Part shown: positions 39,391 through 63,005 of the stretch, in pieces
Layout: each line of letters opens with the position of its first letter
Numbering within the stretch: the first letter of the stretch is position 1
From: Noviherbaspirillum soli
Lineage (GTDB): Bacteria; Pseudomonadota; Gammaproteobacteria; Burkholderiales; Burkholderiaceae_D
Direction: 5' to 3'
DNA length: 64,000 bases
Assembly: GCF_015352955.1 (NCBI RefSeq)
Contig: NZ_JACYOX010000010.1
Span: 62,001 to 126,000, forward strand
Position numbers and translations under genes: made by a program
The notes under the pieces: model-generated
Database searches by the model: none
What the model saw: the letters and a program-made list of their open reading frames with translations, nothing else
What the model was told of the DNA's origin: nothing

Positions 39391-39480
39391 GAAATGGTCA
39401 ATGGCGAATTTTCCGGCCTGCCTCCCCGCAAGCCGGATTACCAGGAAGGCCAGGGCCCGTTGCGGCTCTTGTCTTCCCCC

Positions 39481-39655
39481 TGTCCTGGCCGGTATCCGGG
39501 CTGACAAGGCGGACCGCCCTGCCTTCCCGCGCTTGTCGCACAGTGGCTTTCAGGACGGCCGTCGCATGCAGCATGCGACGCTTGCTTACCGTTGCGGGGG
39601 CAGCACACGTTGATCTCGCGACGTCGATCGCCGATTGCGTGTTTCCCGTTTGACT
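39481..39655 (-). ncRNA. Cobalamin riboswitch
   Basis: Read on the minus strand the conserved blocks appear in order: ACGGGAAACACG (about 39638-39649), GTGCTGCCCCCGCAACGGTAA (in part, near 39590-39606), AAAGCCACTGTG (about 39540-39551), CGGGAAGGC, and the B12-box-like CAGCCCGGATACCGGCC (about 39487-39503). This is the AdoCbl-type aptamer. It lies between cobC and btuC and should repress btuCD-cobB-btuF when cobalamin is plentiful. The remaining leader to btuC is about 176 bases; part of 39656-39756 holds nothing else. Confidence 0.93.
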
Positions 39656-39756
39656 GCGGACATGGACATGTCCGCGGGCACCAGAACGGCGCTATTGTAA
39701 TCGGCCGCTTGACAATCAACCAAACGAATTGACCAGGCGCGGTTTCGAAAAGGCAA

Positions 39757-52668: not shown

Positions 52669-52759
52669 GCTGTTGCTGCTACTGTGGCTGTGCTTGTGAC
52701 TGTTGCTGTTGAGGTGGCCGTTGCAGTTGCTGTTGAAGTGGCCGTTGCAGTTGCAGTGA
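52669..52759 (+). repeat. GTTGCN-type hexamer tract, copy A
   Basis: About 90 bases made of degenerate hexamers of the type GTTGCN/GTTGAA/GTGGCC, with the phrase GTTGAAGTGGCCGTTGCAG near the end. A similar tract (62424-62478) precedes copy B of the structured element. Confidence 0.75.
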
Positions 52760-52775
52760 AGTCCCGTTGAGCGCG

Positions 52776-53138
52776 CCGTGTCAGCGGTGCCCGGAGCGGG
52801 AAAAGGTGCGGCGTCTGTCTGAGCCAAGCGCAGCTTGGCGAGTTTAGCCGCGCCCCGCTCCGGGCACCGCTGGCACGGGCACCCCGCGCAGCGGGGCGCG
52901 ATCACCGGGTCGCCTTTTTTTGGTTACTTTTTTTTGGCGAAGCAAAAAAAGTGACCCGGCCGCCGGGACGGACTCCCGGCTTGTCTCCACGGCAGTGCAA
53001 CCGCCTTGCGTCACCCGGCAAGACACGGGCAGCACCGGCGCTTTGGCTTTGGCTTTGGCTTCGGCTTCGGAAAACAGGTAAATGCAAAGCCTTTGCTTGA
53101 TCGACCAACGGCGGAATGCCCCTTCAGGGTATTCCGCC
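52776..53138 (+). repeat. Multi-hairpin intergenic element, copy A
   Basis: Stem I pairs 52776-52800 with 52854-52878 (25 bp with one G-T pair) and encloses a small hairpin GCCAAGC-GCA-GCTTGGC. A CCCCGC-GCA-GCGGGG hairpin follows, then stem III (52922-52934 with 52944-52956, loop GGCGAAGC), a GCCGGGA/TCCCGGC hairpin near 52960-52980 and, after a 53040-53068 GGCTTT tract, a terminal hairpin 53110-53138 (GGCGGAAT...ATTCCGCC). Copy B at 62497 has the same parts in the same order. Confidence 0.85.
53040..53069 (+). repeat. GGCTTT hexamer tract
   Basis: About five units GGCTTT/GGCTTC within repeat copy A, between its hairpins. It is absent at the corresponding place of copy B, where a 22-bp tandem repeat is found instead. 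Confidence 0.75.
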
Positions 53139-53266
53139 CTACGACAGACGCCGCACCTTATCCGCTTCAGGCATCGCCGTGACGGCGCGCTCAACGGGAT
53201 TTCACTGCAACGGCAACCGCAACCTGCCCCAGCCGCAGCCCGCCATGCAGCCCACCCGTACACGCT

Positions 53267-62496: not shown

Positions 62497-62926
62497 CCGT
62501 GCCGGCGATGTCTGAAGCGGGAAAAGGTGCGGCGTCTGTTTGAGTGGAGCGAAGCGGAGCGAGTTTAGCCGCGCCCCGCTTCAGGCATCGCCGGCGCGGG
62601 GACCCCGCGTCAGCGGGGCGCGATCATCGGGGTCGCCTTTTTTGCCTCCTTTTTTGGCGAAGCAAAAAAGGAGGTCGCCCGCCGGGGCGAACTCCCGGCC
62701 TGGTCATGATGGGAGGACATGCGCATTGGGTCATCAGGGTAGAGACGTCCCTGCGAAGGAGCAGTCAGCCCCCCGCGAAGCAGCAGTCAGCCCCCCGCAA
62801 AGCAGCAGTCAGCCTCAATTTGAAAATCCAGCAAGAGCAGGAGCGACGGTGCCCCGCGAAGTCACCCCACCCGACTACTGTGCCGTCGGTATGGTGCGGC
62901 GGAATGCCCCTGCGGGGTATTCCGCC
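62497..62926 (+). repeat. Multi-hairpin intergenic element, copy B
   Basis: Stem I pairs 62497-62521 with 62575-62599 (25 bp with two G-T pairs). Then CCCCGC-GTCA-GCGGGG, stem III (62645-62655 with 62664-62674, loop GGCGAAGC), a GCCGGG/CCCGGC hairpin near 62680-62700, a 22-bp tandem repeat, and a terminal hairpin 62898-62926 (GGCGGAAT...ATTCCGCC). Order as in copy A (52776-53138). Confidence 0.85.
62761..62814 (+). repeat. 22-bp tandem repeat inside element copy B
   Basis: Two full units (62761-62782 and 62783-62804, differing at one position) and a partial third, beginning GCAGTCAGCCCCCCGC. Copy A has no counterpart. Confidence 0.85.
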
Positions 62927-63005
62927 CTACGTCCTAAGCCATGCGCCATGCGCGGGCACCTTGCGCTCCGTGCTACTCGATTAAAAAACCAGGACCGAAC
63001 CCGCC

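Follow-up and report, generated by a model that had tools for sequence, protein, structure and literature searches.

Two intergenic sequences in a 64,000-nucleotide stretch of the Noviherbaspirillum soli genome (hereafter the window), copies A and B, can each be folded into a long imperfect hairpin. This locus raises the question of what maintains the fold and what kind of element carries it. Copy A sits between a converging Na/H exchanger gene and sensor-kinase gene, and copy B is flanked by a DUF4148 gene and a PEP-mutase-like gene, both in the same orientation. The place orthologous to copy B in a second species of the genus also has the element (L213:1408-1590). The original prediction described a stem with compensatory base changes, at positions 52776-52800 with 52854-52878 in copy A and 62497-62521 with 62575-62599 in copy B, and our re-examination confirmed both placements. 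The two stems differ at seven positions, with no incompatible change among them. Along the left arm, from copy A to copy B, positions 8 (A-T to G-C), 12 (G-C to A-T), 17 (C-G to T-A), and 19 (G-C to A-T) change on both sides, and positions 4 (T-A to T-G), 6 (T-G to C-G), and 15 (C-G to T-G) change on one side and keep their pairing through G-T. The MFE z-scores against dinucleotide shuffles are -8.0 for copy A and -6.7 for copy B. Because none of 200 shuffles was equally stable for either copy, chance folding is excluded. These stems mark out about half of a structured unit, and in copy A the element runs on to approximately position 52980. The features of both copies are as follows.

52670..52758, + strand: degenerate hexamer array of copy A, with GTTGCN / TTTGAAGTGGCC units, abutting the outer element end (sequence reading)
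52763..53198, + strand: whole unit of copy A, a complete first half and an inverted second-half remnant, with edges CCCGTTGAGCGCGCCG and its reverse complement
52776..52878, + strand: stem I of copy A (52776-52800 / 52854-52878), around the apical domain (sequence, covariation)
52801..52804, + strand: A-rich one-sided bulge, AAAA, with ATAA, AACA, or ATCA in other copies and taxa (by eye)
52816..52845, + strand: apical core, TGTCTGAGC, then a hairpin with a GNA loop, then GCGAGTTT; nearly invariant and recurring across phyla
52882..52896, + strand: GC-rich hairpin CCCCGC-GCA-GCGGGG (folding, covariation)
52910..52914, + strand: predicted pseudoknot strand S1, TCGCC, with its partner at 52936-52940 (complementarity tests)
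52915..52921, + strand: pyrimidine linker L1, which is predicted to lie on 52944-52950 as the third strand of a U.A-U triple helix
52922..52956, + strand: A/T hairpin S2 (52922-52935 / 52944-52956) (sequence, covariation)
52936-52943, + strand: loop of the A/T hairpin, GGCGAAGC, with S1' at 52936-52940
52962..52980, + strand: short hairpin GCCGGG/CCCGGC closing the 3' end of the half-element (sequence reading)
53143..53220, - strand: inverted remnant of the second half of copy A, truncated to its outer arm
62497..62599, + strand: stem I of copy B (62497-62521 / 62575-62599), a single half
62633..62674, + strand: predicted pseudoknot of copy B, with S1 at 62633-62637, L1 (T6) at 62638-62643, S2 at 62645-62655 / 62664-62674, and the loop at 62656-62663 (pattern of other copies)

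Each half is about 200 nt long and contains several hairpins, in the order of stem I with its A-rich bulge, a second stem, the apex TGTYTGAG...GCGAGTTT, the GC hairpin, and the A/T hairpin with the loop GGCGAAGC. Within the genus, the element is usually a composite of about 650 bp, in which (GTTGCN)n arrays border two convergent halves. In 129 of 138 own-genus rows, which include repeat views of the same place, two or more exact tandem GTTGCN units occur within 160 nt beyond the element end. The element ends are only approximate because these arrays blur them and the intergenic sequence at empty sites is too diverged. A deletion has reduced the second half of copy A to 53143-53220. A kink-turn reading of the apical core was rejected, by reasoning alone, as a misfit to the standard consensus. 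GTAG-tagged REP-like palindromes of the form GGCGGAATGCCCC...GGTATTCCGCCCTACG are found at 53110-53143, inside the deleted second half of copy A, and at 62898-62931, downstream of copy B. A short imperfect tandem repeat of the GCAGTCAGCCCCCCGCGAA type (62754-62816) is also located downstream of copy B.

A search of the own genome (G000) with copy A, in which 40 of 133 candidates were scored, gave 72 matches. The first 40 are long half-element copies, and the remaining ones are short and mainly involve the self-complementary stem. The covariance-model search found at least 42 half-copies in each of G000, the second species of the genus used for orthologue comparison (G015), and G055. Among 35 G000 stretches, 14 have two long facing halves (together about 650 bp), 19 have one long half, with many of these ending at a contig end, and one is the window with copies A and B. 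At the 38 G015 places that carry the element, there are two convergent halves in 31 cases (seven of them split by an inserted IS) and a single half in seven. In other genera, the halves can be divergent (L056, by eye). One AT-rich ORF of 261 aa with no Pfam match (L072:1828-2613) lies between two divergent element copies about 1.1 kb apart.

Based on flanking genes, the G000 sites comprise 12 tandem, six convergent, and one divergent (n = 19 scored; contig-end copies and copy B unscored), and the G015 sites comprise 20 tandem, 12 convergent, and one divergent (n = 33 callable; five not callable), with gene orientation taken from our own codon-score gene calls. These two sets are not independent, as many sites are common to both species. 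The baseline of window intergenic regions of at least 100 bp has 11 tandem, four convergent, and three divergent, such that the expected divergent share rests on 18 regions. In a convergent composite, a gene reading in from either side meets a half in the folded orientation.

The original prediction held that the folded form is maintained, as RNA or as cruciform DNA. Larger alignments, all from one genus (A1-A3, with A2 and A3 fitted to the covariance model), bear out the maintenance. Alignment A1 contains 42 of 43 references drawn from 28 sources, with one place seen twice dropped. RNAalifold on 42 copies gave 65 pairs, 14 of which have two-sided changes. Across 57 copies from two species, 98.7% of the cells pair, compared with 39-49% when the partners are slid, and 21 of the 65 pairs have two-sided changes, compared with 3-5 in the slid controls. 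Between 20 orthologous half-copies of G000 and G015, which were hand-picked where flanks match (the remaining shared sites, most of them interrupted at contig ends, were omitted), 149 of 1289 compared pairs differ. These include 53 that changed on both sides (eight expected if the sides were independent), 70 that changed on one side and are still paired, and 26 that are broken. The differing pairs contain 74 G-T and only five A-C combinations. For the A-type halves, the counts are 17 both, 36 one side, and seven broken (G-T 36, A-C 1), and for the B-type halves they are 36 both, 34 one side, and 19 broken (G-T 38, A-C 4).

The two strands also differ in stability. Among 120 unique copies from several taxa, the + strand is more stable in 96 and the minus strand in 24. 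The 60-nt arms of these copies pair at a mean of -53.7 kcal/mol, compared with -28.5 when each left arm is combined with a right arm from a different copy. These copies were found by one exact core pattern, and the core itself is no evidence in this test; for pair counting, the real arms were attached to a core whose variable base was fixed as A. The G-T/A-C asymmetry and the + strand stability indicate one folded strand, either RNA or single-stranded DNA, rather than a symmetric cruciform. Of the two forms proposed originally, the cruciform is thus not supported. Structure on one strand is well supported by these sequence comparisons, and evolution appears to maintain the folded + strand.

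An explanation without structural selection is that palindrome correction or gene conversion between arms or copies has kept the pairing. The high copy number and the close inverted halves are compatible with such a process, as is the uneven identity among orthologues (84-86% for L044/L224 vs 93-97% for several others). However, correction is strand-symmetric and gives Watson-Crick pairs, and palindrome correction alone is insufficient because G-T far exceeds A-C. Moreover, such processes cannot yield the parallel third-strand matching or the fixed core in distant phyla that are described below. This explanation is disfavoured, and we consider it very improbable.

Downstream of stem I, the A/T hairpins of different phyla were placed side by side, and two regularities were apparent. 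First, a nearby upstream segment has the sequence needed to pair with the loop; second, the pyrimidine linker reads as a mirror of the hairpin's purine strand. In a first test with 44 unique cases, the mean matched run was 4.7, compared with 2.9 for swapped hairpins. A second set comprised 110 unique hairpins with a purine-starting 3' arm, from 176 cores outside the own genus (the own-genus loci L052-L054 were left out). In this set, an S1-loop match of at least 5 nt is present in 58 hairpins, compared with 20.7 on average and at most 31 in 500 loop shuffles. Among the 78 hairpins with an S1 of at least 4 nt, 52 have six or more consecutive parallel T-A/C-G matches (mean 17.8 and maximum 25 for the controls). 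When the purine strand has an early G, 23 cases match only in parallel, one only in antiparallel, 24 in both, and 25 in neither or with a linker too short. The single antiparallel-only case (L136) would fit in parallel if the register were moved by one base (by eye). A scan independent of the core found 234 such arrangements vs 12 in reversed sequences, with repeat views included in these counts. For the 111 unique arrangements with G in the purine strand, 28 are parallel-only, three are antiparallel-only, 34 are both, and 46 are neither, the last class including many with mis-assigned S1.

Among the 57 own-genus copies, 48 match exactly, two do not, and seven fall outside the search pattern. 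The seven include L230, L233, L234, and L244, which have a compensated S1 pair, CCGCC/GGCGG; L233 also has a mismatch in the linker and L234 has one in the hairpin. The other non-fitting copies are L035 with a mismatched S1, L047 without the hairpin, and L213, which is broken. Of 126 cores from named genomes, 81 have a qualifying hairpin and 51 have an S1 of at least 4 nt, some of which are falsely assigned; the pseudoknot is therefore not universal. The two marks of an H-type pseudoknot, namely pairing between the loop and the upstream segment and covariation of this pairing, were both found at the sequence level. The A/T hairpin is predicted to be part of such a pseudoknot, in which the upstream TCGCC would pair with the loop GGCGA. 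The third strand runs in parallel, with T opposite A and C opposite G, as in a U·A-U/C+·G-C triple helix. This match between the linker and the purine strand suggests that the tail is probably triple-stranded in many copies.

Alternatively, the element may be a bidirectional intrinsic terminator only, with the GC hairpins and T-runs stopping transcription that arrives from either side, and the pseudoknot match may simply result from the presence of hairpins and T-tracts. Most sites are tandem or convergent, one site has a plain GC hairpin instead in the other species, and the S1 of copy A can alternatively pair with an upstream GCGA. Terminator-like sites are present on both strands of copy A (two vs 1.2 expected by shuffling). 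However, the C residues of the linker fall where the purine strand has G, in parallel, and a U-tract needs none. In addition, S1 covaries with the loop across taxa, and a terminator could do without a fixed 20-nt core capping a long hairpin. A role as a terminator alone is therefore judged unlikely by us, although it deserves consideration.

The taxonomic spread of the element is broad. The statement in the original prediction that similar sequences exist in other proteobacteria holds and extends to other phyla. The covariance-model search that it called for gave matches (E <= 0.001) in 29 of 60 genomes of the family and 37 of 185 genomes of the class, with the own genome included. The exact core TGTCTGAGCGNAGCGAGTTT has at least 120 matches in 257 billion bases on both strands, where about two are expected by chance according to our own estimate. 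Record titles among the 80 matches listed include Pseudomonadota, Bacteroidota, Bacillota, Fusobacteriota, Desulfobacterota, Bdellovibrionota, Nitrospirota, and a Thermotoga MAG; these correspond to about eight phyla as assigned from the names in the titles, and the MAG bins may be contaminated. Isolates among the matches include Fusobacterium gastrosuis, Sphingobacterium haloxyli, Parabacteroides massiliensis, and Clostridium sartagoforme. The arms vary between taxa and those around TGTCTGAGCGNAGCGAGTTT are paired, while the core is constant. A blastn search with a 224-base half-element found no match in plasmid (E 1e-5) or phage (E 0.01) records, in a search that is blind to distant copies and may have left out plasmid or phage records near the own genome.

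For known RNA families, Rfam release 15 gave no match at the gathering score in the window except for a cobalamin riboswitch elsewhere (39470-39700, minus strand), and in 18 loci of other taxa only 6S RNA in L134 reached this score. MicroRNA-type matches around copy A were all below the gathering score and were taken as generic matches to long hairpins. Literature searches by sequence string, peptide, and subject found no description in open-access PMC papers. One text match to the element string was a paper on apple fruit. The element apparently represents an undescribed repeat family that extends across several bacterial phyla.

The element itself lacks coding capacity, and candidate mobilisers were sought among its neighbors. 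For a mobiliser in cis, ORFs of at least 90 aa within 2.5 kb of the core were collected from the loci L052-L170 in which the core pattern is present. An all-against-all comparison of these 1199 ORFs revealed no recurring mobile-element family in the 25 largest clusters, all of which are housekeeping proteins or ORFs over the element itself. Y1 transposases were rejected as the mobiliser, as these are present in 53 of 60 genomes compared with 29 of 60 for the element and do not track it; G055, G031, and G058 have the element and no Y1 match at E 0.001. Reverse transcriptases were also rejected, with a presence in 25 of 60 genomes and none in G015 despite its at least 42 copies.

The folded + strand may be DNA rather than RNA. 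Under this explanation, single-stranded DNA would be the substrate of a transposase or hairpin enzyme, comparable to REP-RAYT or IS end-TnpA. The apical caps are GNA in 26 of 37 cases and GNNA in four, and GNA caps are also typical of stable DNA mini-hairpins. One folded strand and composites with inverted halves are likewise compatible. Furthermore, in L102, L120, L127, and L161, the core and arms are located between 13-bp IS66-type terminal repeats (GTAACTATTCAGC/GCTGAATAGTTAC) in a MITE-like arrangement of about 200 bp (search allowing up to two mismatches; L124 has a variant pair). Such repeats were not seen around own-genus copies. Nevertheless, one DNA strand of a composite folds only one half, yet the G-T preference occurs in both halves (36:1 and 38:4). 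The absence of any tracking by Y1 genes also argues against this explanation, and to our knowledge there is no ssDNA precedent for a triplex pseudoknot. We regard an ssDNA element as rather unlikely.

Among known repeats, REPs are dispersed, high-copy extragenic palindromes that form inverted pairs and are mostly downstream of genes (PMC3733652). The present element is similar to REP/BIME/REPIN with RAYT and to TIRtrons in high copy number, inverted pairs, and location mostly 3' of genes (PMC3733652). These similarities, together with the one Y1 gene in the genome, raise the possibility of an ordinary REP/BIME or REPIN family moved by RAYT. However, each half is about 200 nt with several hairpins, compared with 20-40 nt for REPs, and no GTAG or CGTC tag is found at the foot of stem I (by reading). 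The Y1 gene (L042) adjoins a GGGGTCAG-type repeat instead of this element (by eye), and element presence does not track Y1 transposases. Compared with REPs and TIRtrons, the unit is much longer and has multiple hairpins, a core that stays fixed in several phyla, and a predicted pseudoknot. The element is not a REP because the tag, size, and transposase link all fail, and no Rfam family applies in the window or in the 18 loci of other taxa; we give the REP explanation hardly any credence.

Other comparisons are also instructive. Like MITEs and ERIC-like intergenic palindromes, the element is non-autonomous, intergenic, and folded, and in the four loci named above it is bounded by IS66-type repeats. 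Unlike these elements, it has a conserved core and a covarying pseudoknot. The telomerase RNA pseudoknot has the order S1, pyrimidine linker in the major groove, S2, S1', and S2', with U.A-U triples. The element is predicted to share this topology and these triples, but it has no template and no linked reverse transcriptase. Triple-helix elements of the ENE/dENE type include one in Arabidopsis Evade, a mobile-element RNA (PMC12501189). The likeness is a predicted major-groove U.A-U triple helix in a mobile-element RNA that could protect the 3' end; the differences are the H-type pseudoknot, the A-strand in cis, the lack of a poly(A) tail, and the bacterial host (PMC12501189). By analogy, the closest parallels in action may be REP/BIME for the dispersal and ENE-type triple helices for the fold.

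Most likely, the element is a non-autonomous mobile repeat that acts as a structured RNA downstream of genes. Comparison of the copies points to a long imperfect hairpin with free but covarying arms, a near-fixed core, a GC hairpin, and a pseudoknot/linker match in many copies. Beyond these, action of the + strand as RNA, formation of the triple helix, and protection or ending of transcripts would be involved. Transcripts from neighboring genes would run into the element and fold as RNA, forming an H-type pseudoknot with a U.A-U / C+.G-C triple helix. The resulting compact 3' end of the mRNA may block 3' exonucleases, and the GC hairpin with the U-run may terminate transcription. In the own genus, the convergent halves would provide a correctly oriented copy for transcription from either side. 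New copies would be made in trans by some mobiliser and would settle 3' of genes, where a structured 3' end may be tolerated or useful.

The joint explanation, in which a dispersed non-autonomous element is copied in trans and its + strand is selected to fold with an RNA pseudoknot, appears to us somewhat better than an even bet. The points in its favor are the covariation, the strand asymmetry, the S1-loop and third-strand matches, the CCGCC/GGCGG copies, the few divergent sites, the two empty places in G015, and the spread. The points against it are the 26 of 149 broken orthologue pairs, the non-universal pseudoknot, the early-G purine strands that match both ways or neither way, the GNA caps, the failure to find a mobiliser, the low present activity, and the small baseline for divergent gene pairs. 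A bolder version, which we consider improbable, is that the element is a pan-bacterial mobile RNA and a counterpart of SINEs, with the core binding a universal machine and with a 3' pseudoknot of the telomerase/ENE type. Under this SINE-like reading, the element may spread via an RNA intermediate and the hexamer arrays may be products of the process.

If the preferred explanation of a mobile repeat acting as RNA is right, many bacterial genomes share a common dispersed element that is a structured RNA without an Rfam family. Its predicted triple-helix pseudoknot would then be a bacterial analogue of the triple helices that protect RNA in eukaryotic transposable elements. It would become testable how an element without genes occupies several phyla with the same 20-nt core and whether the element sets the 3' ends of the mRNAs of its neighbors.

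Regarding mobility, both flanks lie on a single G000 stretch for 10 of the 38 G015 places and on two contig ends for two more; for the remaining places, one flank or none matched among the G000 stretches compared. Because at least 10 of 38 places are common to both species, the element is not very active now. Two G000 composites have no counterpart between matching G015 flanks. The C38 composite is located between convergent genes; in G015, about 60 bp separate its flanks, and this gap holds a plain GC hairpin. For the C6 composite, the gap in G015 is about 800 bp and contains other sequence with no half-element match. At these two G015 places (C2:678033-678094 and C1:1710365-1711161), the intergenic sequence is too diverged to place the element ends, and short terminal repeats with a target duplication were not definable in the own genus.

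The A/T hairpin is also a site of insertion in the own genus. An IS66-family element (DDE_Tnp_IS66) of 1495-1496 bp is located exactly in the GCTTCGCC/GGCGAAGC loop at seven of the 38 G015 places (L226:3057-4552, L215, L219, L221, L222, L229, and L236). The 8-bp loop flanks this IS as a direct repeat in five loci and is inverted in L221 and L236. Several G000 contigs end at the same loop position, which suggests that the same IS is present at those ends.

At the G015 place corresponding to copy A, the antiporter gene adjoins a hydantoinase-like gene (named by eye), and the G000 relative of the latter gene adjoins another composite. At 255-257 kb of G000 contig C27, the flanks of one composite correspond to two G015 composites (L233 and L234), which is consistent with an inversion between inverted copies. 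Composites thus sit at rearrangement breakpoints. Finally, the flanks of L249 (G015 C2) are found on different G000 contigs, at C83:39397 and C38:227874 (L253 and L254), and these two places are without the element and both have a short GTTGCAGTTGC array.
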